From Cliona cf. orientalis (taxonomy: Eukaryota > Porifera > Demospongiae > Clionaida > Clionaidae), in assembly GCA_963930775.1 (NCBI GenBank), contig OZ005690.1:2960225-3024224 (forward strand): DNA of 64,000 nt, given 5' to 3'. Below, in pieces: positions 2,869 through 56,589 of the stretch. The notes below the pieces were generated by a model. It saw only the letters and a list, made by a program, of their open reading frames with translations, was not told the DNA's origin and ran no database searches. The position numbers and the translations under genes were made by a program. Within the stretch, counting starts at the first letter, position 1, and every line of letters starts with the position of its first letter.

Positions 2869-4545
2869 CTATCACAATCATGTACTGTATAATACATGTA
2901 TAACAGAGTACCTACATGACATTGTATAATCATAATATTATGTCGTCATTATACCTTCTTAATTAGTTACAATAAGAGGAGGATCATTCCAAGTCACGGG
3001 AGCATCGATAGGGTAGGTGGTCTCCCTACCCGGCTGCTGATTCCCAGTCCATGGGACGCCAGGCTGCATAGCTAATACCAGGCATAGTAGACGGGGTGTA
3101 CGTTTCGGTTGAGGGCTGCATGATGGCTGTACCATGAGACACCAATGGCTGGGTGATGGGAGGAGCATAGCCACCTCTGTGACCAAAATTTGGTTGAGGA
3201 ACTGGCTGAGGTGGATATCCACTAGTTGAAGTCATACCACCACCAACACCTTGCATATGGTAAGGGTTAGCAGTAGTAGTAGTGTTAGGCTGCTGTGTGC
3301 TGGTAACCATATTTGTCGAAGTAGCAATTGAACTGGTACTGGTAGCTGCTCCCTGGTTGGGTTGACTCGGTGCCGTGGGTTCAGGGGTATGAGATCCCTT
3401 GACTCCAACGGCGGCAAAGGGGAACTTTGGTCGAGGGGAGGAGGAGGACCCATGGGCCTGGTACATACGATCATGGAGGACAGCAGTCTTATTCTGCAGA
3501 AAAGTAAAAAATATACAAAGACTTATCAAATGACTTAAACAGAAGTTGCCACCAGCAAAAAAAAACAATACATTGTACAAAAGTAATATTTACATGTACA
3601 TGTACGTATTTAATAGCATCGCTCCAAAAATCTCCACTCTCCCACCCTCCGCCAACTTTCAAAATTGCTCTACCTACCTATAATAGCCAAAAATACATGT
3701 ACGTTATGCTACACTATAGTACTTACTTGCTCTCCAGCAGCCTGCTGTAGACAGTTGAGGGCAGTTCCCAGTGAACCCTGGGATGCCAGCAGACTGGCAT
3801 ACAGCCTCAGCTTCGACTGGAGTGTGTCGCTAGAAAAAGCATCAAACTGCTTCCTCTCCTTCTCCACAGCTTTCTTCAGAAGGACCACCTTCTCTATGAG
3901 GTCTTGGAGGGTAAGGGCATCGCCGTTGGACAAGGATGCTGCTGAGTCAGCATTCGAGGAATTCCTGGGAGGTTCGAATAATATCCATACTTACACATGT
4001 AAAAAATTCATATGCTCGATCTAATTATCACAAGTACAGATGCAGATGTGTCTATAGATACATGTACCTGTACATGTACATGCAGTGTTCTCCCCAGTAT
4101 ATAAGGCATGTCGGCCCAACAAGCCTCCGTACATAATTTCCTTTGATATGCAAATAGGGAGATTCCAAAAGCTTTGATGTGGCCACAGCATCCACCCATA
4201 GCATGCCCTACTGTCGTGCCTTGACATGTCCTGAATTTTGCTTGGGGAGAACACTGACATGTACTTACCACCATTCCACAAACTTCTCGATATCGACATT
4301 GCCAGAACATAATATATAGCTAGCAGAGGCCAGCACTGTCCTTCAACTGACCTTCCAACTCAGTCTCGAGCCTACCACCCAACACATCTGTGTACATAAT
4401 ACCAAGGAGAATGGGTTAATTAATTGAGTCCATCACATAATTAATTTTTTGCTAGTCAGTACACACGTGTAGTCACTGGAAGTAGCCTCATCTGCAGGCA
4501 TCCCGATCGTTTTTTGTGTGCATCAAAAAGATCGGGGTAGCTACC
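2869..4545 (-). pseudogene. SEC31 3'-half duplicate 1 (broken, cut by LTR element)
   Basis: Three exons match the full SEC31-like gene at 46640-52417: the Pro/Thr/Gln-rich exon at about 3493-2955, the helical exon at 3964-3727 (SNGDALTLQDLIEKVVLLKK), and the exon at about 4387-4269. The first has a 4-bp insertion (GCTA) near 3070 and an internal deletion that shift the frame. The last is 119 rather than 106 bp, also a frameshift. The middle exon is intact with good splice sites. The segment continues to the small foldback repeat at about 4480-4545, which other copies share. Its 3' continuation (the C-terminal exons) must lie left of the retrotransposon, outside the window. Confidence 0.85.
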
Positions 4546-4780: not shown

Positions 4781-4798
4781 CACACAAAAAGGGGCGTG
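4781..4798 (+). promoter_or_regulatory. Conserved 5' block of DEATH/NB-ARC gene A
   Basis: CACACAAAAAGGGGCGTG, followed by GAATCAGGAGTC, lies about 55 bp before the chosen ATG. The same block precedes genes B, C and D. Its ends form a CACAC/GTGTG dyad in the other copies. It could be core promoter or 5' UTR; this is inference from conservation alone. Confidence 0.5.
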
Positions 4799-4854
4799 AA
4801 TCAGGAGTCTAAGTGTGCAAACTGCTAAAGAAAACTATATATTCTTCTGAGAAG

Positions 4855-7473
4855 ATGGCAGAGTCAGAGGTCTCACAAACCTTTGGAATAAGCAAAGAAA
4901 CACTGAAGTGTGTTGTAAGTGACAAGTACAGCAATAAGATCGCAAAAAGGGTTCATGATGCTTGGGAGAGTCTGGCTACCTTTATCGGAATTCCCCATGA
5001 AGATGTGCATGATATAAAGGAGGAGTACAGGAAACCCCTGGACAGAAGGTTAGCCATGATGAGAAGGTGGCATGAGCTGTGGGGGAGTGAGGCTACTTAC
5101 CTCAGATTAGTAGAGGGTTTGAGGCAAATTGGAAGGAGGGATTTGATTGAATTACTCAAACAAGATACTCAGTTACAGCCATCAGCAAGTGGGTCAAAAC
5201 CACTTCTCAAACATCAAGATAATTACGATCTTCCTTGGGAATCAGCGGAACTCGAATGTAAGGGTACTAATTTAATAGCAATTCTTATCCTTTTCTTGGG
5301 TGCTTTATTCTTTTCATCTAACAACAATAATATTACTATACATAATATTGTAAGTCCTAATTGTAGCATTGACTGTGCTGACCAGCAAAACCTTACAAAA
5401 AATATTACCCATCATTTGAAGAAAGAAGCATTCAGCCACCGAATAGCCGAAAATTGCAGTTCTCCAGAAAGTGACCTACCTATAATTCATCCATTGTTTG
5501 TGGGTAGAGAGAATGAAGTCTTACTTAAAGTAGCCAGAGCTCACATTGTCAACATCAATGGTGCACCAGGGTTTGGAAAATCAACACTAGCGATTCATGT
5601 TGGTTATGAGGTAGTCAAAAATGGAACTTCAGTTCGATATATAAATGTCGAGGAAAAATTGTTTTCTATAGTGAGTCATTGGCAGAGGTCAACTGGGAAA
5701 ACTGAACATAAATTCAGCAATAATGATGTCCATCAGGTACAAACAAAATCTGTAATAAAGCATAGTAGATCATCGTTATCTGCAACAAATTCTCAATTAC
5801 CAACTAGCAAAACATTTAGCGGGAATCTCTTTGAAGAGCTACAAAGATGGAGTAAGGAAATGAAGTGTACAAATGTTCTTATTCTGGACAATTGCGACGA
5901 TATTCTGACAAGTGAATATCGTCGGAAATTTCTAAGCTTTATTGATGCACTAGTAATGAGGTCCAAGTTTAAACTACATGTGATAATAATTTCACAAGAG
6001 AAGTTATTGTATTTGGATGATTTTGATTGTTGGACAGTTAAAGAACTTGATCCACCAGAATCTATTGAAATGCTTGATAAAATAGCTCCAGCTATTGATA
6101 ATGAAACACTGCGGACAGCTGCTGAGTTAGTTGAAGGATGCCCCTTAGCTTTAAAAGTTATTGGACAATTGCTCCACATACATGGAGCAAAGTTGATTCC
6201 CAAACTGAAGGAAGAAATGATCACTCTTTTAGATGAAGCTAGCATTCCAAAGCAACGATTTCGTGTGATTATGGATGTTGCATTTGAAAGATTGGGAATT
6301 CTTAAGGATTGTGGATATGTACTCGGTTTATTTCCTGGCTCATTTGATGAACAAGCTGGTATTTCTATCATAAAAAAGGAGTGTTGGTTATTATATTTTA
6401 AACATTCTTTACTGAGCGTACACTCCTTTCCATACAATGATCGCTACAAAGTGCACAGGCTCATCAAAGAATATTTACAAGAAAAAATCTCAATTCACGA
6501 GAATACAACTTTCATAATCAAATTCGGAGCATATTTTGAATCATTGATGCTGACGCATGCAATGAGCGAAGAAAAGGAAAAATCACAGATTCAAAAGTAC
6601 TCATTATCTTTGGAATTACACAATCTTTATTATCTTAAAGAATTGCTACTAACTGACACACATTTATCATCCAAGGAACTTGCTGTCTTGGGACTTTTAA
6701 GTGACATAGACCTGATACAATTTGAACAACTTCACAGATACTATATAAATTATATTGAAAACATACATGAAGTGTGTCCACTTCTTAACAATTTGAAGTT
6801 ATGTGGGAAAATGTACTCAATTATTGTGCAGCACTTGTATAGGAAATGCAAATGTGATACAATACGGGCATACTTTCAGAACTTTTTCATATCACCATGC
6901 AAGGAATATTTCCAATGTAAAATGACTAACTATTTACACGACCTACACTCATTTGGAGTAATGCACTTATCACAAGATGAATTGTCATACATAGATATCA
7001 TACTTCACTTCCATTGCAACGAAGGATCATACCATATCGAGCGAAACCATTATATCTCCTCCAATGTGTTTATGTTATCAGTTTTGATTTTATCACTTAT
7101 GATAGGTCCGCTAGTTACTTTGCTTTGCAGGAATTATTGCAGACGTTTTTGTACGGGCTGCACCATTGTAATAATAGCAATAGTATTATGGATTATGTGT
7201 GCCTGTATATCATTTGCATGGTTTTCTTATAAAAAATTAAATTACACTGTAGCACATTATCAGTTTCTCAGAATCTTAGAAATTATATCAAAAGAGTTCT
7301 GTCTCTATGCAATACCGTTCTTTGCCCTCATGTTCATAACTTCATTGATGTTATCAAAAATACCAGTAGTGAGCAACTACTTCATTGTAATACTATCTAT
7401 TATATTAATATTACTGTTCATTAATCCACCTCTACCATATTATTGCTGTCAGTTCATTCCACTGTGTGTTTGA
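4855..7473 (+). CDS. DEATH/NB-ARC transmembrane NLR-like protein A
   Basis: Single-exon gene of 872 residues. The ATG at 4855 (AAGATGGCA) is chosen over one 14 codons upstream because a start followed by A/V-K/E is shared by all copies. Residues 1-105 form a DEATH domain (WESLATFIG, ELWGSEAT, LRQIGRRDLIELL). Residues 138-154 are hydrophobic (one membrane segment), followed by a linker with five N-x-S/T sites. Residues 205-440 are an NB-ARC-type NTPase: P-loop GAPGFGKST at 236-244, Walker B-like VLILDNCDD at 341-349, and GCPLA at 428-432. A winged-helix part follows with YKVHRLIKEYL at 531-541 in the MHD position, then a helical Cys-containing region. The last ~135 residues hold four hydrophobic segments and end CCQFIPLCV. 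No LRR, WD40 or ankyrin sensor is seen. The ligand is unknown; an immune or cell-death role is inferred from the domains. Confidence 0.88.
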   Translation: MAESEVSQTFGISKETLKCVVSDKYSNKIAKRVHDAWESLATFIGIPHEDVHDIKEEYRKPLDRRLAMMRRWHELWGSEATYLRLVEGLRQIGRRDLIELLKQDTQLQPSASGSKPLLKHQDNYDLPWESAELECKGTNLIAILILFLGALFFSSNNNNITIHNIVSPNCSIDCADQQNLTKNITHHLKKEAFSHRIAENCSSPESDLPIIHPLFVGRENEVLLKVARAHIVNINGAPGFGKSTLAIHVGYEVVKNGTSVRYINVEEKLFSIVSHWQRSTGKTEHKFSNNDVHQVQTKSVIKHSRSSLSATNSQLPTSKTFSGNLFEELQRWSKEMKCTNVLILDNCDDILTSEYRRKFLSFIDALVMRSKFKLHVIIISQEKLLYLDDFDCWTVKELDPPESIEMLDKIAPAIDNETLRTAAELVEGCPLALKVIGQLLHIHGAKLIPKLKEEMITLLDEASIPKQRFRVIMDVAFERLGILKDCGYVLGLFPGSFDEQAGISIIKKECWLLYFKHSLLSVHSFPYNDRYKVHRLIKEYLQEKISIHENTTFIIKFGAYFESLMLTHAMSEEKEKSQIQKYSLSLELHNLYYLKELLLTDTHLSSKELAVLGLLSDIDLIQFEQLHRYYINYIENIHEVCPLLNNLKLCGKMYSIIVQHLYRKCKCDTIRAYFQNFFISPCKEYFQCKMTNYLHDLHSFGVMHLSQDELSYIDIILHFHCNEGSYHIERNHYISSNVFMLSVLILSLMIGPLVTLLCRNYCRRFCTGCTIVIIAIVLWIMCACISFAWFSYKKLNYTVAHYQFLRILEIISKEFCLYAIPFFALMFITSLMLSKIPVVSNYFIVILSIILILLFINPPLPYYCCQFIPLCV

Positions 7474-9773: not shown

Positions 9774-11118
9774 CTATAACTTATATTATATCAGGAGCAC
9801 ATGATTATATGTACATGCACAATGTAAACATACACATCGATGAGGTTCATCATACTGAGGAACCACAGCTAGGGTACAAGGTATACAATAAATTGTCATA
9901 GCTATCACAACCATGTACTGTACAGTATAACAGACTTCCACCTAGTACCTACATGTACATGTACAGTATACATTATCATAATAATTATTATGTCATACCT
10001 TTTTAGTTATAATAGGAGGATCATTCCAAGTCACAGGAGCATCGACAGGGTAGGTGGTCTCCCTACCCAGCTGCTGACTCCCAGGTGGCGGCACACCCCC
10101 TCCTCCAGGCCGGGGCACGCCAGGCTGCATAATACCGGGCATAGTAGACGGGGTGTAAGTTTCGGTAGATGGCTGCATGATGGCTGTACCATGAGACACC
10201 AATGGCTGGGTGATGGGAGGAGCATAGCCACCTCCGTGGCCAAAATTCGGTTGAGGAACTGGCTGAGGTGGATATCCACTAGTTGTAGTCATACTACCAC
10301 CAACACCTCGCATATGGTAAGGGTTAGCAGTAGTAGTAGTGTTAGGCTGTTGTGTGCTGGTAACCATATTTGTCGATGTAGCAATTGAGCTGGCACTGGT
10401 AGCTGCTCCCTGGTTAGGTTGACTCGGAGCCGTGGGTTCAGGGGTACGAGATCCCTTCGCTCCAACGGCGGCAAAGAGGAACTTTGGTCGAGGGGAGGAG
10501 GAGGAACCGTGGGCCTGGTACACACGATCATGGAGGACAGCAGTCTCATTCTGCAGAATATTCAAAGATTTAATTAAATGAGTTAAACACAAGTTGCCAC
10601 AAGCAAAAAAAACCCACATTGTACAAAAATAACATTTACATGTACATGTACATGTACACAGATGCTAATTTAAAAGCAATCTGTGTTTAACAGCATCACT
10701 CTAAAAATCTCCACTCTCCCACCCTCCACCAACTTTCATAATTGCTCTATAGTACCTACCTATAATATCCAAAAATACATGTACGTCATGCTACACTATA
10801 GTACTCACTTGCTCTCCAGCAGCCTGCTGTAGGTAGTTGAGGGCAGTTCCCAGTGAACCCTGGGATGCCAGCAGACTGGCGTACAGCCTCAGCTTAGACT
10901 GGAGTGTGTCGCTAGAAGAAGCATCAAACTGCTTCCTCTCCTTCTCCATGGCTTTCTTTAGAAGGACCACCTTCTCTATGAGGTCTTGGAGGGTAAGGGC
11001 ATTGCCATTGGACAACGAGGATGCTGAGTCAGCACTTGAGGAATTCTTGGGAGGATCGAATAATATCCATAGTAGCTACTTGCACATATAAAAGATTCAT
11101 AATATATGCTCGACCTAA

Positions 11119-12329: not shown

Positions 12330-14084
12330 AGAGCTTAATATTATTATGTTAAAATTTTCAGTTGATCTTAAAAATGTAAGACCATGCTAACAGTTATAAT
12401 TACTTTGATCAGACATTAATTTTGATGCAAAATTAAAGGTTGGACATCACAACCAGTAAGCAGTTTTGAAATTTAATATGCAAATGCCAGCATCTTCATG
12501 CAAGTTTGTACAGCTGCAGCCATAATGTGGGTGTTAGGCCAACCCTCAACTAGCCTCCAAACCACTGCTTATACTTAGCTAGCTACAGCAAATTCAGTGG
12601 GTGCTGCCTAATCCATAGTAAACAGGATGGGAGCTGTTCGGATGACTATCAAGGAAATAGTGACGTGAGCAGAATTTCGTTTTCATTGGGTGATAAGACA
12701 CGCTATATTGCCAATTCAGCACCTGCTGGAACAGCACTGTATGCCATTAGAAGCACAATAAGAAGCTGTGGTCCATTTTACTTTTCAAAGAATTTTGCCA
12801 TTCTCAACTCAAATGTCTACTTGCTCAACTCTGATGGAGTTGTCAAGGGTGTGTTTGAACTAAATCACAACTTGGGATCTTTCTTTGCCTTCAATAGGAA
12901 CATTACCTTCTCTGGTTGCACTAGATTCTTCAACAATACTCCACCAGCGAACACTACAGTCAATTTCAAAGATGGAAGAGCACTCACTCTCTATCAGACA
13001 ATGCTGAGTCTCAATGGAGAGATCACATTCAAATATAATCACGCTGAGATTGGTGGTGCCATTGTAGCTACTGAAAGTGAGATCTATTTGAGTGACCATG
13101 TTAAGGTAGTCAACAACGGTGCGTCCATAAGTGGCGGTGGCCTATACCTAGCTCGGAGTGACCTCTTCAGCCTCCAGGACAGCAATTTAACCGTTTTGAG
13201 AAACATGGCCACCAAGAGAGGAGGAGGAATTCACGCTGTAAGTTCGTCAATTAAAAATGTTGTGACAGGAGAGTAAATGGATTTAAATAGAAAGAAGACT
13301 GAAGAATTTAGAGGAGCTACGCTAAATATCATAAAGAACTCGGCACAAAGGGAGGAGGGCTGTGCTTAGAAGCTAACTCAAAAGTCATCATATTGAAAGA
13401 TTCATGAGAAGTACTGTGAATTTTGTAAGAAATTCGGCTCAGTAGCTATGGTGGAGCAATTTACATCGATGATGAATCAAATTCTGGCTCATGTGCAAGG
13501 GCGGAGAACAGGTAGCAAAAGTGGGGGGGCTCAGACCTTTGACTGTGTACTGTGACAACCGTTAGGCTGTGGGCATGTGCCCACAGCCCACCTAGGGGGT
13601 CTGGGGGCATGCTCCCCCAGAAAATTTTGGAAATTTCGACTCCCTGAGAGCGTTTCTGATGCAATCTGGCACCAATTTTTGGACTGATTTTAGTAGCAAT
13701 TTTTACTTTAGCACTCTTTGCAAACACCTAGAATTATGACAGAATTATGTTGCTGTAATTTTGTAGTATGGGCATATGATAAAATGGGGGGGCTCAGCCC
13801 CCCTTGTTTCCAAAGTGGGGGGGCTGAAGCCCCCCCTGCCCCCCCCCCTATTTCTCCGCCCCTGATGTGTAAGCAACCCCTTTGAAATAAAATCACCGAA
13901 ATCAGAGTGCTTTATGAGTGTTGTGTCCACACAGACAATCGTCACTCCAATGACCAATTTTAGCTTAAATAATGTACTTTTTGATGGAAATTTGGCAACA
14001 GTGTTTGGGCCCACACTCTTTGGAGGACTACTGGACAGATGCATTGTCAGCCCATTTAGAACAATCGATCGAACAACAAATCAG
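12330..14084 (+). pseudogene. Beta-helix (Pmp-like) receptor gene, broken
   Basis: The frame 12665-13276 encodes repeats of the GGA(I/L)/FxxN type (RFFNNT, GGAIVATES, GGGLYLARS, GGGIHAVSS), the signature of right-handed parallel beta-helix proteins such as polymorphic-membrane-protein-like families, which are common in sponges. Coding similarity continues past the stop at 13276 (NSAQRGGGLCLEANS, then SYGGAIYIDDESNS at 13440-13480) but in shifted frames. It is interrupted by a transposon at 13495-13865 and resumes at 13912-14060 (FSLNNVLFDGN, GGLLDRC). The stretch 12330-12850 is duplicated at 30440-30960. Multiple lesions make it a pseudogene. The ligand and function of the family are unknown. 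Confidence 0.7.
13495..13865. mobile_element. MITE with CAGGGGCGGAGAA-type ends
   Basis: The left end CAAGGGCGGAGAACAGG and the complement of the right end, CAGGGGCGGAGAAATAGG, are inverted repeats. ATGTG flanks both sides. It interrupts the beta-helix frame. An internal stretch (GGGGGCATGCTCCCCCAG) recurs at about 14170-14190 and, inverted, at about 45320-45345. The ends resemble hAT-type MITEs, but an 8-bp duplication is not clear. Confidence 0.65.
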
Positions 14085-15879: not shown

Positions 15880-16412
15880 CATTAGTGGTCATTAACTTGA
15901 AAGATTCGACTGATTCCATGCATGATCGTTCCAAATTGGTTGCCTACGAACGTAGAGTCAATAATTTCAGCTGTTGGGTCAACTCAGATTGTTAAGGACG
16001 TTCCACTTCCATCTAGTCCCCTAAAGGTCACCCCTTGAAGGATAAATCTGCCTACATCTCTGACAAGATTCCTTCCGCAGCCAATAAAATTTATGTTTTT
16101 TAGAGAAATCTCTTCCGTGAATTCAAATGAAAATCGAGACGTTAAATCACACCTAATTGTTACATTATCATTCTCGGAGGTCATTGCCAAGTTTGTTAAA
16201 CCTGAAAAGGACAGATCTGTGTTCAAACTGTGATTACCCGGTAACATGATCACTGTTATGTTGGTATCATTGCTATTCTCAGTAGCAAATTTTAAGAGGG
16301 TTTGACATGGTTGTTCGTTTCCCGAGCAACGGTCGGTTTGGCTAGGCTTGATGTAATATGTTTTGCTCTGAGCAAGTCCCAATAGCGTTAATATCAACAC
16401 ACATGACCTCAT
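15880..16412 (-). pseudogene. N-terminal part of a secreted beta-helix receptor, truncated
   Basis: Read on the minus strand from an ATG at 16412 (upstream in-frame ATGs exist to 16583): a signal peptide MRSCVLILTLLGLAQS, then KTYYIKPSQTDRC and PCQTLLKFA, then LPGNHSLNTDLSFSG. This is the usual N-terminal layout of sponge beta-helix receptor-like proteins. The frame meets TGA near 15987, yet the same frame downstream still reads as family sequence (VDPTAEIIDSTFVGNQ), so the stop is a nonsense mutation. The rest of the gene is replaced by the MITE at 15589-15879. It lies opposite in orientation to the C-terminal fragment at 18000-18875. Confidence 0.65.
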
Positions 16413-16760
16413 TATAGATGGCCTAACCATCCTGGCTGGACGACGACTTGTACACTGAGGTGATTGGCAGTTGTAGTTGTTATGTACAGTAATATTATTG
16501 TTATGATCACTCATGTACCCAATAGTTAAAACAGCAACCACTGTGAACAAATATTTGCTGACCCTGATTAAAAACAACTTCAATTCCCAAAGTAATGATT
16601 TCTATTTTTTATTATCAGCAGTAGGATACATCTTCTATCATGAAAAATCATCACCTATGAGCCAAACATTGCACTAAGTGCAATAGCTAAGGCGTGCCTG
16701 CTATAATAATATTATATTCAATGGCTTATAGACTATCACTATCATCATTACTATGCAGTT

Positions 16761-17999: not shown

Positions 18000-18875
18000 C
18001 AGCAGTATACGGTAAAGGTCACTTCTTTATGAAAACAGTCCTTCCTGCTTGGAGATCTTGTGGCTCCCTGATGGTACAGTTGGGTACCTTGCTCGAAAGC
18101 ACATATATATAGTTCTCTTTATTATTGCTCTACTGATTCTCGTCTTCTGCATAGCCTACAGCTTTCTAGTTTTGTGCTGGCAGCTGATTCTCTACTTACC
18201 AAGCTGGAAGGTCTTCAAGTGCATCAAAAGCCCAACATTTTACGTTTTTATGGAAGCGTACCGTGTTCCTTATACACCCAAGCACCGCTATTGGACTGGA
18301 TTACTTCTTTAGCTCGTGCAATTGTATACCTCATAGCTACTGCCAATGTATCTGGTGATCCTCAGATTCAGCTCTGAGTCATCTCGATTATCTTCATACT
18401 GATTTGCATTATCCTTCTTAAAATGTTTATTGCCACAAAGATATTCAACAGATGGCTAATCGATTCGCTTGAGTCATTCTTCTATTTCAATATAGTCTTT
18501 TTTGCTTCATTCACAGCTTATAACCTCAGCACGGGAGGGAATCAGGATGGTATTGCCTATACATCAGTGGTGCTGTCAATAGTAGTGACAACCTTCATTC
18601 TTTTCTACCACTTTTACACTTACACTTCGCTATTCTCGTGCATTCGTAAGAGCAAATTGGTCACAAACTTTAAGAAAAGGTTTACATCGAAGTCGAAGCC
18701 GAAATTTAATGAAGACAGTCATTATTCGATAACTGATTATGATTTATCTGTAGATATTTCCAGATATGATGATATTATGGACCTCACTGACAGTGATGCT
18801 GAGTACCACAGTGCTGACTCTTATTCTATAAAAAACAGATCAGGGCCCACAAGATCTGTTGTTGAAATAAACTAA
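18000..18875 (+). pseudogene. C-terminal membrane part of a beta-helix receptor, frameshifted
   Basis: The frame 18049-18312 encodes LPDGTVGYLARKHIYIVLF, a membrane segment and YRVPYTPKHRYWTGLLL, then hits TAG. One T is missing in the CTTCTTTAGCTCG run at about 18310. The other frame continues with ARAIVYLIATANVSGDPQ, and from 18423 the frame encodes IFNRWLIDSLESFFYFNI plus a cytoplasmic tail rich in Ser/Asp/Tyr (DSDAEYHSADSYS). This is the multi-pass C terminus that follows the beta-helix in this receptor family. The same segment recurs in damaged form at 40567-40930. Confidence 0.6.
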
Positions 18876-21285: not shown

Positions 21286-22670
21286 TATTAACGCTCGGCG
21301 CATGCGCACGAGGGGTAATTACAGTAGTCTGTTTGTCTGTCTGTCTGTTACCGCTCTACTGCCTGCGTAGGACATTTATGCAACAAAATGAACGTACCAG
21401 CCAACTTTGCGCCAAACTTCAAAGGTTTTCAACTGAGGGATTTCGCTAAAAAGCTTTCTCTTACGACTATTCTTTGTCTTTAGCATAGCGAGGTCAGCCA
21501 TTTTTCAGTTCCCAGTATAGTAAACTATGGTTAAACCCCTCCGTATACTACTTGTGGTAATGCCTATAACCATACTATGGCTACAGGATACAGTTCATAG
21601 GCTATATGTAGCTAGTATTGAGCATCTATATCTAGATGTATCTCAGGAATGCAATCTGTAATTGCCACGTGGCAGTGCATGTCTAATAAAAGCCCACCGT
21701 CATAGCTTTTCCTGAAGTGAGCCTGGGTTTGAGGCTAGATCATAGCTATGGTCTCATCTTAGAATTGAGTAAGTTGCATACATGTACTCACTATCCTGTC
21801 ATAGCCTTGTAGTGCATGAGGCCAAGCTTGCGTGCATATGGTTGTATCTTGATGACAGTAGCTAACTAGCTGTCTGCAGTCTAGCAACCTGGCCAGTATT
21901 AGCTACTGCTTTAATGAATAACAGCTCACACACATCAGCATAATTTAAAAAGTAATCGCAGCAAGAACACCCCAGAACATCATTTGCACAAAACTACTAT
22001 TCCATCTTGACTTGTGACTCACATTGCACAATCTCAGCATTATTAACTCATAAGTAGCTACGTAGCTACTGTTTTAATACGCTGAATTTGCGCCGAGCGT
22101 TTTGCACTTTAGTGCTTTCATTTTAGAAGAAGCAATCCGGTAGATCAGCTATTTACATCATGATAAACCTCTCTACGTACTCTCTCAAGGTAGCAATTCC
22201 AGATGTCTCGACGAGGCCTATTCAGCGCTGGGTGTTTCCTGTTGAAAGAACAAAGCTTGTTTGAGTTATGCACTGAAACAGATTTTTGCATGCAAATTTC
22301 CATAGAGCTAAAAATCTAAATCGTAAAGCGTGTGGTTAACCAATTTGCTTGATTCAAAGTTCAGAAGAAAGGCCATTCACTCAGCTAACTCTTGGTTTGT
22401 GTTTCCTGTTGATAGCTAAATCCATTACCAAGTTATGGCTGCTTTTATTGCCGGAGGTCGATCGTCTGGAAGGTAACGAAAAAATACCATTTTCCTGACC
22501 GCCTCTCCAGACACTGTCTTCAAGTTCTCCATAATTTGCAAGAGCCATTTCTACGGAGTCAACAGAGCAATTGACCTTTAACCCACATAGGCATAATGCA
22601 ATAATGGAGGGCGCCACGCTGGCGGGTGCGGTTAGTATCACCCACATACTTTTAAATTATGTAAGCAGGC
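21286..22670. other. Non-coding stretch upstream of pseudogene B
   Basis: No gene, RNA gene or clear repeat is recognised, apart from a short GTCT microsatellite at about 21330. Its last ~50 bp join the duplicated 5' flank of the DEATH/NB-ARC family (ATCACCCACATACTT). Confidence 0.4.
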
Positions 22671-22688
22671 CACACAAAAAGGGGTGTG
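22671..22688 (+). promoter_or_regulatory. Conserved 5' block of DEATH/NB-ARC pseudogene B
   Basis: CACACAAAAAGGGGTGTG with the CACAC/GTGTG dyad lies about 60 bp before the ATG at 22747. It is the same block as before genes A, C and D. Confidence 0.5.
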
Positions 22689-22746
22689 AATCAGAAGTCT
22701 AAGTGAGTAAGCTGCTGAAGAAAACGGTCTAATACAAGTAGAGAAG

Positions 22747-24970
22747 ATGGTTGAGTCAGAGATCTCACAAATCTTTGGAATAAGCAAGGAAACACTAAAG
22801 TGTGTTGTCAGCAACAAGCATAGAAACGATATTGCCAGCAGGACAGGTGATGCTTGGGAGAGTCTGGCTACTTTCATTGGAGTTTCCCCTGAAGATGTGC
22901 ATGACATAAAGGAGGAGTACAGGAAGCCTCTGGATAGGAGGTTAGCCATGATGAGAAGGTGGCATGAGCTATGGGGGAGTGAGGCTTCCTACCGCAGATT
23001 AGTAGAGGGTTTGAGGCAGATTGGAAGGAGGGATTTGATTGAATTATTCAAACAAGATACTCAGCTACGGCCATCAGAATCACATCTGATTCAAGATAAG
23101 GAATCAGTGGGACCCAGTGATACATGTGCAGTTGTTTATTCCGTGATAATTCTTATGCTTTTTTTAGCACTATAGTGATTTCATTTAAGAATAGTTATAA
23201 TACTCTACACATAATGAAAGTCCTATTTGTAATATTGACTGTTACAGTACTGATCAGCAATATCTTCTAAAAAATATTACCCATCATTCAAAAACATTAT
23301 TAACATTCAGCCACCGAATTGTGAAAAACTGCAGTTCTCCAGAAAGTGACTTACCTATAATCCACCCACTGTTTGTGGGTAGAGAGAATGATACACGTGA
23401 AGTCTTACTTAAAGTAGCCAGAGCTCACATTGTCAACATCAATGGAGCACCAGGGTTTGGAAAATCAACACTAGCAATTCATGTTGGTTATGAGGTAGTC
23501 AAAAATGGAACTTCAGTTCGATATATAAATGTCGAGGATAAAATGTTTTCTATAGTGAGTCATTGGCAGAGGTCAACTGGGAAAACTACGCCCAAATTTA
23601 TGAGCAAAAACGTTGTCCATCCTGAACAAATGACATCCCTGATGAAGCCTATAGTAGATCATTGATATCAAATTATCAAATTACGAATAGCTAACATGAA
23701 GACCTTCTGGAAGAGCTACAGAGATGGAGTAAGGAAATGAAGTGTACCAGTGTTCTTATTCTGGACAATTGTGATGACATTCTAATAAGTGAATATCGTC
23801 AAGAGTTTCTTAGCTTTATTGATGCACTAGTAATGAGGTCCGAGTTTAAACTATACATTATAATGGTTTCACAAGAGAGATTATTGTATTTAGATGATTT
23901 TGATTGCTGGACAATTAAAGAACTTAATCAATCAGCATCTATTGAAATGCTTGATAAGATAGCTCCAGCTATTGATAATGAAACACTACAGACAGCTGCT
24001 GAATTAGTTGAAGGATGCCCCTTAGCATTAAAAGTTATTGGATAATTGCTTCATATACATGGAGCCAACGTGATGCAAAATTGAAGAAAGAATTGATCAC
24101 CCTTCTAGATGAAGCTAGCATTCCAAAACAGCGTTTTCGTATGATCATGGATATTGCATTCAAAAGATTGGGTATTCTAAAAGATTGTGGATATGCACTC
24201 AGTTTATTCCCAGGCTCATTAAATTTGATGAACAGGCTGCTACTGCTATCATCCGAAAGGAGTGTTTGGAATTATATTTCAAACATTCTTTACTACACAA
24301 ATACTCATTTGCATATAACTATCGCTACAAATTGCATAGGCTCATTAAAGAATATTTACAAGAAAAAATTTCAATCCGTGAGAATATAACATTCATAATT
24401 AAATTCAGAGATTACTTTGAATCACTGTAACGGTTATTGAAATATGCAATGAGCCAAGAAAATGAAAATTTAAAATCAGAAATTGAAAAGTACTCATCAT
24501 CTTTAGAATTACACAATCTTCATTATTATAAAGAATTGCTTTTAACTAACATATCTTTATCATCCAAGGAACTTGCTATCTTGGGACTGTTAAGTGAATT
24601 AGATATACACCTGATACAATTTGAACAACTTCACAGATACTACGAACTTTATATTCTAAATGTACTAGAAGTATGCCCACCTCTTAATAACTTGAAGCTA
24701 TGTGGGAAAATGTACTCAACTGTTGTAAGGCACTTGTATCGGAAATGTAGATGTGAAACAATACTGGCATATCTTCAGAGTTTCATCACCTCGCCATGCA
24801 CGAAATATTTCCAATGCAAAGTAGCAACCCATTTACATGACCTAGACTCCTTTGGAGTAATGCACCTATTACAAGATGAATCGTATTACATAGATATCAT
24901 ACTTGGTTCACATTGCACGCGCAACAAAGGATACCGTATTAATAAAAACAAGAGACACCATAATATACCT
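22747..24970 (+). pseudogene. DEATH/NB-ARC NLR-like pseudogene B
   Basis: The DEATH domain frame is intact (22747-23175, WESLATFIGV, LRQIGRRDLIEL) but runs into TAG right after the first membrane segment. The NTPase resumes at 23321 (P-loop GAPGFGKS) and stops at 23665. 23737-24045 restores the Walker B and GCPLA region and ends at TAA in place of a conserved Gln (IGQLL becomes IG-stop). A frameshift follows, then an extra ~5 bp at about 24220 and a TAA at 24428. 24437-24970 keeps the helical region. The C-terminal membrane segments are missing: similarity ends near 24970. With at least six lesions it is a pseudogene. Confidence 0.9.
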
Positions 24971-25226
24971 ATCATCAACAGTAGGCACATGTCTGGTCTC
25001 TCATTTAAACGGATCTCAAAGGTTGAACGGTTCATTTCCGGCGCTCGCTCGATCTCCAACTTTGTTTACAAACTTTGTACTTCATCAGTACTTCCCACCT
25101 CAGAGTTGGAAAGGTGTAGCCTACAAAAAAAACACTGCCAGTAATGCTGGTAAAGGGTGGTAGGCCAATAAAAGCTCACGGTCGATAATCGATAACAGAA
25201 AACGTATGGGTGGGCGGTGATAGGTA

Positions 25227-30439: not shown

Positions 30440-30970
30440 GCTTTATTATGTTAACATTTTCAGTTGATCTTAAAAATGTAAGACCATACTAAATTTGACC
30501 AGACATTAATTTTTGATGCAAAATTAATGGTCAGACATCATAACCAGCAAGCAGTTTTGAAATTAAATTTTAATATTATGCAAAAACCAGCATCTTCGTG
30601 CACGTTTGTACAGCTGCAGCCATCGTGTTAGGCCCACTCTCAACAAGCCTCCAAATCACTACTTATACTTACGTATACCGACAACGTTAACAAATTCAGT
30701 GGGTGCTATCAAATTAACCTATAGTAAACGGGATGGGAGCTGTTCGAATGACTATCAAGAAAATGCATGGAGACGTGAACAGAATTTCGTTTTCATTGCG
30801 GATGATAAGACATGCTGTATTGCCAATTCAGCACCTGCTGGAGCAGCACTGTATGGCATTAGAAGCACAATAAGAAGCTGCGGTCCATTTTACTTTTCAA
30901 AGAATTTTGCTATTTTGAACTCAAATGTCTACCTGCTCAACTCTGACAGAGTTAAGTTTTCACAGGTTCG
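30440..30970 (+). pseudogene. Beta-helix receptor fragment, duplicate of 12330-12850
   Basis: Non-coding and coding sequence match 12330-12850. The frame 30606-30983 includes DGSCSNDYQENAWRR, FIADDKTCCIANSAPAGAAL and RSCGPFYFSKNFAILNSNVY. It is cut off after LLNSDRVK, directly before the 5' flank of gene C, so only one internal exon-sized fragment remains. Confidence 0.65.
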
Positions 30971-31083
30971 ACGTGTATTATAGTAGAATACCTACATTTA
31001 ATACTCTTGTGCATATGAATAATTATACCACCGCAATGAATCTTATTAAGAGTAGCATCCATACACACATGATAGCTATAGGC

Positions 31084-31101
31084 CACACAAAAAGTGGTGT
31101 G
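31084..31101 (+). promoter_or_regulatory. Conserved 5' block of DEATH/NB-ARC gene C
   Basis: CACACAAAAAGTGGTGTG lies about 50 bp before the ATG at 31152. A second shared stretch (CCGCAATGAATCTTATTAAG) lies about 55 bp further upstream, as in gene A. Confidence 0.5.
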
Positions 31102-31151
31102 AATCAGGAGTCTGAGTGTGCAAGCTGCTAAAGAAACCTCTTTCTGAGAAG

Positions 31152-33746
31152 ATGGCAAAGCCAGACGTCTCACAAACCTTTGGAATAACCAAAGAAACAC
31201 TGAAGTGTGTTGTTAGTGACAAGCACAGTAATGAGATCGCAAAACGCGTTAGTGGAGACTGGGAGAGTCTGGCTACCTTCATTGATATTTCCAGCATGGA
31301 TGTTGATGACATTAAAGAGAAGTATGACGAACCTCTGGACAGAAGGTTAGCCATGATGAGAAGGTGGCATGAGCTGTGGGGGAGTGAGGCTACCTACCGC
31401 AGTTTAGTAGAGGGTTTGAGACAGATTGGAAGGAGGGATTTGATTGAATTCCTGAAACAAGAGACCCACCCACCATCAGCTAGTGGATCAAAATTGCTCC
31501 TAGTATGTAATGCTGCTTTTGTAGCAGTTATTATCATCATCTTTGTTGGTGCTTTCAATTACAATACATATAATGCAGTTCCTATTCATAACATCTCCGA
31601 GTCTGGCACTAATCAGCAATATCTGACAAAAAATACTACCCATTCTTCCAAGACAGTAGAAGTACACCACCAAATAGTGAGTAACTGCGCATGCAGTTCT
31701 CCAGAAAGTGACCTTCCAATAATCCACCCACTGTTTGTGGGTAGAGAGAACGATGTACATCAGGTGTTACTGAAAGTAGCCAGAGCTCACATTGTCAACA
31801 TCAATGGAGCACCAGGGTTTGGAAAATCAACACTAGCGATTCATGTTGGTTATGAGATAGTCAAAAATGGAACTTCAGTTCGATATATAAATGTCGAGGA
31901 TAAAATGTTTTCTATAGTGAATCAATGGCAGAGGTCAGAGGGGAAAGCTAAGCCCAAATTTATGAGCAAAAACGATGTCCATCCAGGACAAATGACATCC
32001 CTGATTAAGCCTAGTAGGTCCTCAGTATCAAATAATTATCAAACAATGAGTAGTGAGCATAATAATATTATTATGCACGGAGACCTTGAAGAGCTACAAA
32101 AATGGAGTAAGGAAATGAAGTGTACCAATGTTCTTATTCTAGACAATTGTGATGACATGCTGATAAGTGAATATCGTCAACAATTTCTTACCTTAATCAA
32201 TACACTGGTAATGAGGTCCAAGTTTCAGCTACATATTGTAATAGTTTCACAAGAGAGATTATTGTATTTAGATGATTTTGATTGTTGGACAGTTAAAGAA
32301 CTTAATCAATCAGCATCTATTGAAATGCTTGATAAGATAGCACCAGCCATTGGTAATGAAACACTACGGGCAGCTGCTGAGTTAGTTGAAGGATGCCCCT
32401 TAGCATTAAAAGTTATTGGACAATTGCTCCACATACATGGAGTCAACTTGACGTCTAAGCTGAAGAAAGAAGTAGTTATCACTATTCTAGATGACGCTAG
32501 TATTCCAAAACACCGATTTCGTACAATTATGGACATTGCATTTGAAAGATTGGGAATTCTTAAGAATTGTGGATATATACTCAGTTTATTCCCAGGCTCA
32601 TTTGATGAACAGGCTGCTACTGCTATCATCCAAAAGGAGTGTTTGGAATTATATTTCAAACATCCTTTACTAAACGAGTACTCCTTTGCATACAACTACC
32701 GCTACAAATTGCATAGGCTCATTAAAGAATATTTACAAGAAAAAATTTCAATTGGTGAGAATACAACTTTTATGATTAAATTTCAAGCATACTTCAAATC
32801 ATGGCTACTGGATCATGCAATGAGCCAAGAGAATGATAAATTGGTGACTGAAAAGTACTCATTATCTTTCGAGTTACATAATCTTAATTACCTTAAAGAA
32901 TTACTCTTAACTAACATGCATCTATCACCCAAGGAACTTGCTGTTTTGGGACTTTTAAGTGATATGGACCTCATACAATTTGAACAACTTCACAGATACT
33001 ATGCAATTTACATTCTAAATGTACAAGAAATATGCCAACTTCTTAATAACCAGAAGCTGTGTGGGAAAATGTACTCAACTGTTGTGAGATATTTGTATCA
33101 GAGATGTAAATGTGAAACAACGTGGGCATATCTTCAGAATTTTTTCAAGTCTCCATGTATGGAATATTTCCAATGCAAAGTGGTACGTTATTTAGACGAC
33201 CTAGAGACATACGGTGTAAAATTGTACCTATCACAAGATGCATCATCCTACATAGATATCATACTTGGCTCACACTGCAATGAAGTGCACCGTATCCAGA
33301 AAAATGATTTTATCACCTTCAAATATTTTTTAACATCACTTATGGGAATGGTTTCTACTGTAGGTTCTTCAATGATTTTACGTAGAAGGGTATTTCTCAA
33401 CCATTTTTGTATGGACTGTATAATAACAATATTATTATGCATTGTGTGTGCCTGTACGATAGCTTTTATACCTATAGTGCTTTATTATGATATAGCTGTT
33501 ATTAATACACATCATCAATTTCTCAGAATGCTAGAAATTACATCAAAAGTATTATGTCCCTCTGTAATATTGTTAATTGCCATTATTTTCATTACCACAT
33601 TTATACTATCAAGAGTGAGGAACTATTATTCAGATATTAATGATAAGTTGACCGTGTTATTTTTTTTTACATCAGTTATTGTACAGCTTATTAGTCTGTC
33701 TCTACCAGATTATTATTGCTGTCAGTTCATTCCATTATGCATTTGA
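31152..33746 (+). CDS. DEATH/NB-ARC transmembrane NLR-like protein C
   Basis: Single exon, 864 residues; the ATG at 31152 (AAGATGGCA) aligns with the starts of A, B and D. DEATH domain first (WESLATFIDI, ELWGSEAT), then one membrane segment (AAFVAVIIIIFVGAF), a linker with NIS and NTT sequons, and an NB-ARC NTPase with P-loop GAPGFGKST, VLILDNCDD and GCPLA. The winged-helix motif is YKLHRLIKEYL. A helical Cys-containing region (CKCETTWAYLQNFF) and four hydrophobic C-terminal segments follow, ending CCQFIPLCI. The 150 bp around the P-loop differ from gene A by only a few bases, whereas the stretch between P-loop and Walker B and the membrane segments differ much more. The SEC31 copy downstream is convergent. 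Confidence 0.88.
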   Translation: MAKPDVSQTFGITKETLKCVVSDKHSNEIAKRVSGDWESLATFIDISSMDVDDIKEKYDEPLDRRLAMMRRWHELWGSEATYRSLVEGLRQIGRRDLIEFLKQETHPPSASGSKLLLVCNAAFVAVIIIIFVGAFNYNTYNAVPIHNISESGTNQQYLTKNTTHSSKTVEVHHQIVSNCACSSPESDLPIIHPLFVGRENDVHQVLLKVARAHIVNINGAPGFGKSTLAIHVGYEIVKNGTSVRYINVEDKMFSIVNQWQRSEGKAKPKFMSKNDVHPGQMTSLIKPSRSSVSNNYQTMSSEHNNIIMHGDLEELQKWSKEMKCTNVLILDNCDDMLISEYRQQFLTLINTLVMRSKFQLHIVIVSQERLLYLDDFDCWTVKELNQSASIEMLDKIAPAIGNETLRAAAELVEGCPLALKVIGQLLHIHGVNLTSKLKKEVVITILDDASIPKHRFRTIMDIAFERLGILKNCGYILSLFPGSFDEQAATAIIQKECLELYFKHPLLNEYSFAYNYRYKLHRLIKEYLQEKISIGENTTFMIKFQAYFKSWLLDHAMSQENDKLVTEKYSLSFELHNLNYLKELLLTNMHLSPKELAVLGLLSDMDLIQFEQLHRYYAIYILNVQEICQLLNNQKLCGKMYSTVVRYLYQRCKCETTWAYLQNFFKSPCMEYFQCKVVRYLDDLETYGVKLYLSQDASSYIDIILGSHCNEVHRIQKNDFITFKYFLTSLMGMVSTVGSSMILRRRVFLNHFCMDCIITILLCIVCACTIAFIPIVLYYDIAVINTHHQFLRMLEITSKVLCPSVILLIAIIFITTFILSRVRNYYSDINDKLTVLFFFTSVIVQLISLSLPDYYCCQFIPLCI

Positions 33747-38928: not shown

Positions 38929-39126
38929 GGCCACTCCAAATTAATTCATTGTTTCTCATCCCCCCCTGAGCCAAAAATTGATGCGGGCGGGCGGCTGGAA
39001 ATGGTCGTTTATTCACAAGTTTGATGGGTAATGGTCGTCAAAACCATAAGTTCAGCAGTCCAAAAAATCGAGGCGGTATACTTTTGTATTGTGGGATGAA
39101 AAACAACTAATTGATTTGGAGTGGCC
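38929..39126. mobile_element. PIF/Harbinger-like MITE in SEC31 copy exon (198 bp)
   Basis: It belongs to the same family as 38601-38838 and is shorter by an internal deletion. TAA is duplicated at 38926-38928 and 39127-39129. The empty site CTGCATAATACCGG is present at 10125 and 48310. Two insertions of one family lie within 330 bp of a coding exon. Confidence 0.85.
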
Positions 39127-40480: not shown

Positions 40481-40531
40481 GCAATCTGGAGAGCTAGAGG
40501 GAGCTGTTGGCTGCCTTCGTTACTTATGCTG
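40481..40531. other. 51-bp microinversion inside a SEC31-copy exon
   Basis: Compared with the exon at 49851-49977, the stretch is present as its reverse complement (GCAATCTGGAGAGCT... on the + strand), while both flanks (GCAAAGTCATCAGGCC and CCAAACCATGGCAA) keep normal orientation. Short GGCC/GCC repeats sit at the breakpoints. Confidence 0.85.
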
Positions 40532-40566
40532 GCCAAACCATGGCAATTTTAGTCCACTGACAATTC

Positions 40567-40930: not shown

Positions 40931-41026
40931 AGTGGCAGCACGCCAAGTTCCTTGGGACATATTTTGAGGACAATTCCTCCAGCTCAGACTGTTTTGGATA
41001 ATTTTGATCATAGTGCAGTCAGCCTG

Positions 41027-41807: not shown

Positions 41808-44417
41808 ATGGCAGAGCCGGAGGCTGCACAAACCTTTGGAATGAGTGAGAAAGAACTGATGTGTACTGTTAGTGAAAAGCACAGGAATGAGATTGCAAAT
41901 GAGATTGGTGGAGACTGGGAAAGTCTGGCTACCTTCATCGGAGTTCCCCCTAAAGATGTGGATGGTACAAAGGACACGTACAGGAAGCCCCTGGATAGAA
42001 GGTTAGCCATGATGAAAAGGTGGCATGAGCTGTGGGGGAGAGATGCTACCTACAGCAGATTAGTAGAGGGTTTGAGGCAGATTGGAAGGAGGGATTTGAT
42101 TGAACTCTTGACAGAAAAGGCCCACCTGGTACTATCAGCTAGTGGGTCAAAATCATTCCTCAATTATTTTCGAAATCAGTGGTCCAGGAATGTACGTCAT
42201 GACTGTATATTATATATGAATGCTGCTTTGATAGTATTTGTTGCCATCTTATTAATTGTTATTATTCTTGATCGTAATACATACAATGCAATTCCCAATT
42301 CCGAGTCTGGCACTGATAGGCAATATCTGACAAAAAATATTACCTATCCTGTAGCATTACACCACCGAATAGTAAGTGACTGCAGCTCTCCAGAAAGTGA
42401 CCTTCCTAAAATCCATCCATTGTTTGTGGGTAGAGAGAATGATGTACATCAAGTCTTGCTTAAAGTAGCCAGAGCTCATCTTGTTAACATCAATGGTGCA
42501 CCAGGGTTTGGAAAATCAACGCTAGTAATTCATGTTGGTTATGAGGTAGTCAAAAATGGAACTTCAGTTCGATATATAAATATCGAGGAAAGAATGTTTT
42601 CTATAGTGAATCATTGGCTAAGGTCAAAGGAGAAAGCTAAGTCTGAATATAGCAGCAAAAATGATGACCATCCAATTAATACGACATCACTTACAAAGCC
42701 TAGTAGGTCGTCATTATCAAACTTGAATTATTCCGATCAAATGACGAGTAGTGAACATGTAGACTTGATTAAAGAGCTACAAAGATGGAGTAAGGAAATG
42801 AAGTGTACCAAGGTTCTTATTCTAGACAATTGTGACAACATCCTAAAGAGTGAATATCGTCAACAATTTCTTAGTTTAATCAATACACTCGTAATGATGT
42901 CCAAGTTTAAGCTACATATTGTACTAGTTTCACAAGAGAGATTATTATATTTAGAGGATTTTGATTGTTGGGAAGTTAAAGAACTTACTCAGTCAGCATC
43001 TATTGAAATGCTTGATAAGTTAGCACCAGCTATTGATAATGAAACATTGCGGACAGCTGCTAAATTAATTGAAGGCTGCCCATTAGCTCTAAAAGTTATT
43101 GGACAATTGCTCCACATACATGGAGCCAAGTTGATGCCCAAATTGAAGAAAGAATTGATCGCTCTTTTAGATGATCCAGAAGTTAGTGATCCAAAGCAAC
43201 GGTTTCGAATAATCATGGAAGGTGCATTCAAAAGATTGGGAATACTTAAGGATTGTGGATATGTACTCAGTTTATTCCCTGGATCATTTGATGAACAGGC
43301 TGGTACTGCTATTGTGCAAAAGGAGTGTTTGGAATTATACTTCAAACATTCTCTATTAAACGAATACTCACTTGCATATAACTACCGCTACAAGATGCAC
43401 AGGCTCATTAAAGAATATTTACAAGAAAAAATTTCAATCCGTCAGAATACAACATTCATCATGAAATTCAGAGCATATTTTGAATCATTGTTACTGAAGC
43501 ATGTAATGAGCCAAGGGAATGATAAATCGGAGACTAAAAAATATTCATTATCTTTAGAGTTACACAATCTTGACTATCTTAAAGAGTTGCTATTAACAAC
43601 TAACATGCATCTATCATCCAAGGAACTTGCTGTCTTGGGACTCTTAAGTGACATAGACCTCATACAATTCGAACAACTTCATAGATACTATACACTTTAT
43701 ATTGAAAATATACATGAAGTATGCCCACTTCTTTATAACTTAAAGCTATGTGGGAAAATGTACTCAACTGTTGTGAGGCACTTGTATCGGAAATGCAAGT
43801 GCGAAACAATATGGGCGTATCTTCAGAATTTTGTCAAGTCTCCATGCATGGAATATTTTCAATGCAAAGTAGCACGCTATTTACATGACCTAGAATCACA
43901 TGGAGTAATGCACCTATCACATGATGAATCAACATATATAGATATCATACTGAGCTGGCATTGCAAAGAAAGATACCATACTGATGATAAGATGAGAAAT
44001 CACTTGATCATCAACAATAACTTTACGCATATAGTTGCTGTACTGGTTGTTATTCTTGGTTTCTATATATTTGTTTTTTTGGGTAGTGGCAATAGTTGTG
44101 TGAAATACACTTTCATAGCTGCAATTATAGTGTTATGTGGCTGTATCAGTGTCATTACTGCAGCACCTGAAGTATTATATTATTATGAAATGATTATGCA
44201 TAATCAGTTTCTCAGAATATTAGAAATCCTGGCAAAAGCGTTCTGTCACTATGCAAATATCATTCTTTTTTTATTATGGCAATTATGGCATAATACTAAT
44301 AATAATATTGCTGCATTCAGAAAGAGGACTTTAATATTATTATTATTTTTTACAATTATTGTAATAACTATAACTCAAACAAATTTTTGCTGTCAGTTCA
44401 TTCCAGTATGTGTTTGA
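41808..44417 (+). CDS. DEATH/NB-ARC transmembrane NLR-like protein D
   Basis: Single exon, 869 residues from the ATG at 41808 (AAGATGGCAGAG), the start shared with the other copies; an in-frame ATG at 41748 is less likely. DEATH domain (WESLATFIGV, ELWGRDAT), one membrane segment (ALIVFVAILLIVIIL), a short linker, then an NB-ARC NTPase with P-loop GAPGFGKST, VLILDNCDN in place of NCDD, and GCPLA. The winged-helix motif reads YKMHRLIKEYL, that is MHR where plant and animal NB-ARC proteins usually have MHD. The C-terminal hydrophobic part is the most divergent of the family (IVAVLVVILGFYIFVFLG and others) but ends in the conserved CCQFIPVCV. Convergent with the longest SEC31 copy. Confidence 0.88.
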   Translation: MAEPEAAQTFGMSEKELMCTVSEKHRNEIANEIGGDWESLATFIGVPPKDVDGTKDTYRKPLDRRLAMMKRWHELWGRDATYSRLVEGLRQIGRRDLIELLTEKAHLVLSASGSKSFLNYFRNQWSRNVRHDCILYMNAALIVFVAILLIVIILDRNTYNAIPNSESGTDRQYLTKNITYPVALHHRIVSDCSSPESDLPKIHPLFVGRENDVHQVLLKVARAHLVNINGAPGFGKSTLVIHVGYEVVKNGTSVRYINIEERMFSIVNHWLRSKEKAKSEYSSKNDDHPINTTSLTKPSRSSLSNLNYSDQMTSSEHVDLIKELQRWSKEMKCTKVLILDNCDNILKSEYRQQFLSLINTLVMMSKFKLHIVLVSQERLLYLEDFDCWEVKELTQSASIEMLDKLAPAIDNETLRTAAKLIEGCPLALKVIGQLLHIHGAKLMPKLKKELIALLDDPEVSDPKQRFRIIMEGAFKRLGILKDCGYVLSLFPGSFDEQAGTAIVQKECLELYFKHSLLNEYSLAYNYRYKMHRLIKEYLQEKISIRQNTTFIMKFRAYFESLLLKHVMSQGNDKSETKKYSLSLELHNLDYLKELLLTTNMHLSSKELAVLGLLSDIDLIQFEQLHRYYTLYIENIHEVCPLLYNLKLCGKMYSTVVRHLYRKCKCETIWAYLQNFVKSPCMEYFQCKVARYLHDLESHGVMHLSHDESTYIDIILSWHCKERYHTDDKMRNHLIINNNFTHIVAVLVVILGFYIFVFLGSGNSCVKYTFIAAIIVLCGCISVITAAPEVLYYYEMIMHNQFLRILEILAKAFCHYANIILFLLWQLWHNTNNNIAAFRKRTLILLLFFTIIVITITQTNFCCQFIPVCV

Positions 44418-56586: not shown

Positions 56587-56589
56587 CCC

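Follow-up and report, generated by a model that had tools for sequence, protein, structure and literature searches.

Can a DEATH domain and an NB-ARC-type ATPase belong to one chain and lie on opposite sides of a membrane? The question is raised by gene A (4855..7473, + strand, 872 amino acids) of the sponge Cliona cf. orientalis, a whole open reading frame (ORF) whose product is read as a DEATH domain, a membrane segment (TM1), a linker, an NB-ARC ATPase with its winged helix, a cysteine-rich helical region and four C-terminal hydrophobic segments. The window, by which we mean the whole stretch of 64,000 nucleotides that was analysed, is C2:2960225-3024224 of a genome of 216.8 Mb in 149 contigs, and all of the family analysis concerns this one genome. 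Our reading, a prediction from sequence that we place somewhat on the probable side, is that gene A belongs to a family of membrane receptors with a cytosolic DEATH domain and an extracytosolic NB-ARC domain.

The DEATH domain of A occupies residues 27-103 (4933..5163) and is followed by TM1 at residues 135-153 (5257..5313), whose hydropathy (KD) of 2.01 is weak alone and whose position is kept in relatives, and by a linker at residues 156-200 (5320..5454) with five N-x-S/T sequons, judged to be coding from its open frame and its ratio of nonsynonymous to synonymous substitution rates (dN/dS). The NB-ARC STAND ATPase and winged helix (5464..6549), recognised by core alignment and profile match, has the P-loop GAPGFGKS at residue 236. 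The helical region (6535..7029) carries seven cysteines conserved among paralogs (C641, C650, C665, C667, C682, C688 and C721), and the KD scan places the four C-terminal segments within residues 738-856 (7066..7422). Genes C (31152..33746, 864 amino acids, TM1 at 31494-31550) and D (41808..44417, 869 amino acids, TM1 at 42207-42263) have the same layout, also on the + strand. A, C and D are intact single ORFs, C being 68% and D 65% identical to A, and the order of DEATH domain, membrane segment, NB-ARC, winged helix and helical region that had been predicted for them originally is present in single open frames. Gene B (22747..25144, + strand) is a broken copy, in which a DEATH domain and a hydrophobic run (unscored) precede frame breaks and stops. 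A fifth copy, E (C2:2952955-2955546), is 67% identical to A and ends 4.7 kb before the window starts. A stretch before the ATG (cacacaaaaagg..gtgaatcaggagtc...gctaaag) is kept in A, C, D, E and the broken B, at about 4790-4854, 22660-22746, 31080-31151 and 41710-41807 in the window, and is likely a shared 5' untranslated region or promoter.

The N-terminal domain was identified with Pfam as Death, with E values of 1.6e-12 in A, 1.5e-12 in C, 4.3e-12 in D and 6.8e-13 in the DEATH ORF of B; the scores of 46-49 bits against a cut-off of 22.6 place these among DEATH-domain proteins. No CARD was found by Pfam in A, C or D, and the solved chains closest to the DEATH domain of A are CRADD and PIDD. 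The combination of DEATH domain, TM1 and NB-ARC is established with Pfam in A, B, C, D and three loci elsewhere in the genome (L014, L022 and L023), and is plain from the sequence in E; in L014, L022 and L023 all three parts share one ORF. In L021 and L035 the combination is split between frames, in L015 the DEATH domain lies in a separate ORF 2.6 kb upstream, and L031 has a Death ORF (L043) 5.5 kb upstream. An ORF upstream of L013 is borderline (22.3 bits against the Pfam cut-off of 22.6). A DEATH domain in L016, which resembled the others by eye and scored 39 bits with a profile containing L016 itself, was rejected after neither Pfam nor a leave-one-out profile returned it.

The ATPase needed a broader comparison, since Pfam NB-ARC gives A, C and D 17-19 bits, below its cut-off of 23.5, and the NPHP3_N and nSTAND models score equal or better there. 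The cut-off was passed by eight of the 11 relatives scanned (L009-L016) and failed by L022, L023 and L031. Using the ATPase and winged helix of 14 family members, we built a core alignment and profile that matches APAF1 (1z6t, E 1.5e-10, profile 6-357 against chain 124-470) and also NRC4, AfsR, NRC2 and Roq1. The family ATPase is of the NB-ARC type, judging by these matches to APAF1 and plant NB-ARC proteins and by the eight relatives above the cut-off. All 14 cores have the same Gly, Lys and Ser in the P-loop and the same Asp in Walker B, and therefore nucleotide binding seems to be retained. A winged-helix His at position 331 of the same alignment is near-invariant (at least 90%), and we take it to resemble the His of the MHD motif. 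Part of the original prediction was that no LRR, WD40 or TPR sensor is present; this holds for A, C and D, where Pfam returned none of the three up to E 1, and fails among the relatives of A, L010 matching TPR_2 with 29.6 bits. LRR, which at the C terminus characterises a bona fide NLR, was not found by Pfam in the 11 scanned relatives. In a tree of the 14 cores the four TPR-type rows form a single branch (support 90/95), and L016, L031, L015 and L013 are long, unsure branches. Genome-wide there are nine Pfam NB-ARC matches, one of which (L008, C2:7548602) is in a frame of 64 amino acids.

A search of the genome with A gave at least 52 matches and a search with the TPR-type L010 at least 26. 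A recognisable P-loop is present at no fewer than 18 loci (A, B, C, D, E, L009-L016, L021, L022, L023, L031 and L035), and the layout is therefore not a local quirk of the window. Of the 17 loci scored, 16 have a hydrophobic segment ahead of the ATPase and in its frame: 15 of 16 alignment rows and L035 (KD 2.85), B being left out. In the 15 rows the KD of this segment is 1.80-3.56 and it lies 39-101 residues before the P-loop, with 71-101 residues from the end of TM1 to the P-loop in the A-type rows; the remaining row is L021, whose ATPase frame has no segment (0.76) and whose neighbouring frame has one (2.33). The controls were 11 NACHT ORFs from this genome, one (L046) found in the search with A and ten taken by listed frame length from 104 NACHT matches; in none of the 11 does a segment above KD 1.5 precede the P-loop. 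TM1 of C (2.94) and of D (2.93) each exceed all 500 shuffles of the first 700 residues, and segments of KD 2.9-3.6 are present in C, D, L014, L022 and L023. The last three loci share 31-49% identity with A where they match it, and L023 is intact and on another contig. Four loci (L009, L010, L011 and L012) are of a TPR type, with TM1, NB-ARC, a long TPR-like region containing conserved cysteine pairs, and C-terminal hydrophobic segments. Searches with patterns for close relatives found none in GTDB genomes or IMG/VR, and no Rfam family reached its gathering score in the window. An AlphaFold model made with the three window proteins had a pLDDT of 32.8 and a pTM of 0.22 and was not used.

The side of the membrane on which each part would lie was approached through four kinds of evidence. 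In 12 non-redundant members there are 95 sequons after TM1, compared with 58 for the reversed motif and a shuffle mean of 57.7, and none of 5000 shuffles reached 95; before TM1 the same members have 5 against 7 reversed. The 11 NACHT controls contain 39, with 43 reversed and a shuffle mean of 38.3. By region, over 16 rows that include close copies, forward and reversed counts are 17 and 13 in the linker, 62 and 29 in the ATPase and winged helix, and 44 and 28 in the helical region. The linker had been said to hold several N-glycosylation sites, five of them in A; the five are there, and they are peculiar to A, C having two and D one.

Cysteines gave a second indication. Over pairs of six A-type rows (D, L021, L022, L023, L015 and L031), they are kept in 75 of 123 cases in the helical region at 25.5% identity, in 15 of 30 in the linker at 18.9% and in 25 of 40 in the winged helix at 36.3%; the figures are 1 of 20 in the DEATH domain at 29% identity and 22 of 122 in the C-terminal bundle at 16%. 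In each of the seven helical-region columns 10-11 rows have a letter, which is a cysteine in 10 or 11 of them, and C641 and C650 are lost jointly in L023. The TPR-type rows keep two pairs, C608/C613 (4 and 5 of 5 rows) and C852/C865 (all four rows with a letter). In the identity bin 0.30-0.40 cysteines are kept in 120 of 375 cases in the family and 81 of 518 in the NACHT controls. Disulfides formed in an oxidising compartment would leave such a pattern, the ATPase domain excepted. For a glycoprotein outside the cytosol, with N-glycans and disulfides beyond a signal anchor, the signs in the sequence are thus mostly, though not uniformly, favourable.

Charges were counted at both ends of the protein. 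Within 15 residues beside TM1, in 15 rows, there are 38 Lys and Arg on the DEATH side and 18 on the ATPase side, the DEATH side being higher in ten rows. At the C terminus, segments called at a KD of 1.6 or more number four in A, three in C and four in D (one of them weak, 1.65); the original prediction had given four to each of the three. In seven rows (A, D, E, L022, L015, L031 and L026) the loops of the predicted cytosolic side hold 32 Lys and Arg in 170 residues and those of the other side 10 in 204, with the direction agreeing in all seven. This bundle is the fastest-evolving part (dN/dS 0.50-1.03, the alignment being poor there). Because of the sequons, the cysteines, the TM1 charges and the C-terminal loop charges, we consider it rather probable, by a small measure, that the DEATH domain is cytosolic and that the ATPase, winged helix and helical or TPR region face the lumen or the outside. 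The earlier proposal that the two domains lie on opposite sides of a membrane thus gains support from four kinds of sequence evidence in a wider family, and of the three explanations then offered (an unusual topology, a segment that does not span, or an NTPase active in an organelle or extracellularly) the last appears to fit best.

Several observations weigh against an extracytosolic ATPase. Membrane segments were called by the KD scan in 19-residue windows and by no trained predictor, and TM1 of A falls within its shuffles (95th percentile 2.35), so that the segment in A rests on conservation. No DEATH domain was found for L009-L012 in the available upstream sequence, and that of L016 was not confirmed by Pfam or the leave-one-out profile. 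Three of the 12 members show no excess of sequons over the reversed motif (equal in L014, fewer in L031 and L010), and family and controls differ modestly in the ratio of forward to reversed sequons (odds ratio 1.8, one-sided p 0.023). Cysteines of the ATPase domain are kept in 19 of 61 cases at 35.6% identity, no more often than identity itself, and the cysteine excess over the controls is smaller in the other identity bins (128 of 717 against 86 of 621 at 0.24-0.30; 28 of 50 against 61 of 145 at 0.40-0.60). The charge difference at TM1 is nil in two of the 15 rows (A and L010) and reversed in three (L015, L012 and L013). The sides of the C-terminal loops were assigned after reading the loops, and three of the seven rows (A, D and E) are close copies; the seven left out of 14 were C and L023, with three segments called, L009-L012, where parsing was unclear, and L014b, which as printed leans slightly the opposite way. 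Finally, an ATPase beyond the cytosol requires ATP there.

In a rival arrangement TM1 is a hairpin, re-entrant or peripheral, the DEATH domain and ATPase are both cytosolic, and the C-terminal bundle anchors what would act as an ordinary NLR held at the membrane. The familiar NB-ARC proteins act in the cytosol on cytosolic ATP, TM1 of A is only weakly hydrophobic at 2.01, and the ordinary cysteine conservation within the ATPase domain is as this arrangement would have it. It is nevertheless opposed by the sequon enrichment, by the cysteines kept in the linker, winged helix and helical region and by the C-terminal loop charges, and in C, D, L014, L022 and L023 the segments, with their KD of 2.9-3.6, resemble plain spanning helices; we regard it as unlikely. 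Another arrangement has TM1 buried at rest and inserted on oligomerisation, forming a pore like that of a plant resistosome or a bacterial TM-STAND effector. Across the family the segment does shortly precede a presumably oligomerising ATPase, and pore models are known for resistosomes, but effector helices of that kind are amphipathic and stand at the extreme N terminus, not behind a DEATH domain, and through its C-terminal hydrophobic bundle the protein would be integral in any case, which leaves conditional insertion very unlikely.

It might also be that TM1 and the linker are a retained intron or belong to a rare isoform, the main product being a soluble DEATH-NB-ARC protein. The region is poorly conserved among A, C and D, the DEATH domain is in a separate upstream ORF in some relatives (L015 and, borderline, L013), and each of the four copies in the window has an AG dinucleotide before the conserved SSPESD. 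Looking by eye for splice-like ends around SASGSK...SSPESD, we rejected the sole obvious pair in A (GT in AGTGGG and AG before TTCTCC), which would break the frame. From SASGSK to SSPESD the frame is open for 86, 67 and 77 codons in the three intact copies A, C and D, whereas the other two forward frames have 5-10 stops each; of 5000 shuffles of the DNA of each stretch, 11, 73 and 22 stayed open, and dN/dS is 0.42, 0.77 and 0.56. The linker therefore looks coding, fast-evolving and yet evolving as protein. The stretch is open and coding by dN/dS, and in L014, L022, L023, L013, L015 and L031 the segment stays in frame with the ATPase; this speaks against an intron of any kind, and we hold the reading as a retained intron or rare isoform to be highly improbable. 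Slightly less probable still is that the tandem family is decaying and no longer has a function. B is broken, the frame of L022 contains a TAG near its end, the match of L012 to L010 also holds a TAG, frames are split in L014, L021 and L035, and L026 is without its N-terminal half in frame; against this, five copies (A, C, D, E and L023) run uninterrupted through 860-870 codons, and dN/dS is 0.32-0.37 in the ATPase of A, C and D.

If the ATPase does lie across the membrane from the DEATH domain, as it seems to, these proteins, which look like immune sensors of cell death, may be membrane receptors and not cytosolic sensors. In such a receptor the N-terminal DEATH domain would remain in the cytosol with TM1 as a signal anchor, and NB-ARC, winged helix and the cysteine-rich helical (or TPR-like) region would stand on the lumenal or outer face, with the C-terminal membrane bundle holding the chain a second time. 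A ligand, or a rise of ATP on the ATPase side, could then flip NB-ARC from closed to open through nucleotide exchange; that extracellular ATP is the trigger is a guess. The ectodomains might oligomerise as other STAND proteins do, and the DEATH tails would cluster beneath the membrane, recruit death-fold partners and seed a death-fold signal. Of the mechanisms considered, this clustering of DEATH domains by oligomerising ectodomains is the likeliest. Perhaps, then, a whole animal gene family encodes an inverted apoptosome, in which an APAF1-type NB-ARC outside the cytosol, possibly switched by extracellular or luminal ATP released by damage, relays its oligomerisation to cytosolic DEATH domains by way of one membrane helix; we put this forward tentatively, as a little short of probable. 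STAND ATPases are regarded as cytosolic switches, and the proposal, if true, would unite death-receptor and apoptosome-like routes in one chain and raises the question of whether NB-ARC can be switched by nucleotide outside the cytosol.

APAF1 and the plant NB-ARC NLRs (NRC2, NRC4 and Roq1) resemble the family in NB-ARC and winged helix, P-loop, Walker B and winged-helix His. The family differs from them in having a DEATH domain instead of CARD, CC or TIR, hydrophobic segments ahead of the ATPase and again at the C terminus, and a predicted extracytosolic ATPase; A, C and D have no WD40 or LRR match, and Pfam found in them neither the N-terminal CARD nor the C-terminal WD40 of APAF1. Death receptors such as Fas and TNFR1 would work alike, ectodomain clustering driving DEATH clustering, but their chain has the opposite orientation, with a TNFR cysteine-rich ectodomain and no ATPase; TNFR was not found by Pfam in A, C or D. 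KAP P-loop NTPases also combine a P-loop NTPase with membrane helices in one chain, the helices being inserted within the NTPase domain, whereas in this family they flank it, TM1 of the A-type rows ending the 71-101 residues before the P-loop given above.

Among animals, the surveyed parts of the literature describe sponge NLR architectures with transmembrane domains, said to have been reported first for A. queenslandica (PMC12909245), a D. avara NLR that is induced and predicted to have a transmembrane domain (PMC6208332) and, in Halichondria panicea, receptor classes that all include membrane-bound members (PMC8242945). The sponge NLRD (DEATH-NACHT-LRR) and other sponge NLRs, as presented in those passages, share with our family a DEATH domain joined to a STAND ATPase, an animal immune-type setting and membrane-bound forms; they have NACHT and LRR where the family has NB-ARC and no LRR, a comparison made on descriptions that give neither the place nor the side of the transmembrane domain (PMC12909245). 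For AjNLR-new of the sea cucumber, NACHT is described as extracellular and the Ig domain as intracellular (PMC13133943). By that description it is a membrane NLR-type protein with its STAND domain outside and another domain inside, as proposed here, but it has NACHT and Ig, transmembrane segments around the Ig domain and a role in phagocytosis, and the available text of that paper does not mention DEATH (PMC13133943). This NACHT protein, with a different signalling domain, is the one printed case of an animal extracellular STAND that we found in the parts of the literature covered. Because membrane-bound sponge NLRs and an extracellular sea-cucumber NACHT have been reported in these texts, the statement in the original prediction that known NLRs are soluble was too strong. 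Placozoans have 39 NB-ARC genes, and their NLRs carry TPR or WD40 as C-terminal repeats (PMC6321704). The DEATH-TM-NB-ARC order was not described in the surveyed parts of PMC12909245, PMC8195603, PMC6321704, PMC8242945, PMC6208332, PMC12723187, PMC2575513 and PMC13133943, and an earlier description from Amphimedon is possible. With membrane NLRs and an extracellular STAND already known, DEATH-TM-NB-ARC with a predicted extracytosolic ATPase would be, relative to those sources, a new variant.

The window contains other elements around these copies. Four consecutive TRAF-like ORFs lie on the + strand at 52718-61446, 8-17 kb downstream of D; the first has MATH (2e-26) and zf-TRAF (5.5e-13) by Pfam, with RING only below cut-off, and the other three were recognised by eye. 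They might be signalling partners of the DEATH domains, or their position might be chance. Pieces resembling a beta-helix (PMP-like) membrane protein were seen at 12665-13276, 15984-16583 (- strand), 18040-18875, 30606-30983 and 40446-40931, and outside the window at L018:1-883 and L013:1-3969; tblastn recovered 18040-18872, 40698-40877, L018 and L013, and the rest were seen by eye. These pieces are interleaved with the TM-STAND copies and stand beside B, D, E and L013. A functional link was rejected in view of the very large size of the PMP-like family; there are 1741 candidates genome-wide, of which 77 were scored, and nearness is therefore no evidence beyond a tandem unit. At 172-2577 an ORF with reverse transcriptase, RNase H and integrase represents a Gypsy-like retroelement. 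Four similar Pro/Thr/Ser-rich ORFs on the - strand (3026-3580, 9993-10619, 39107-39562 and 48175-48741), found by eye, are probably a dispersed repeat within the array.

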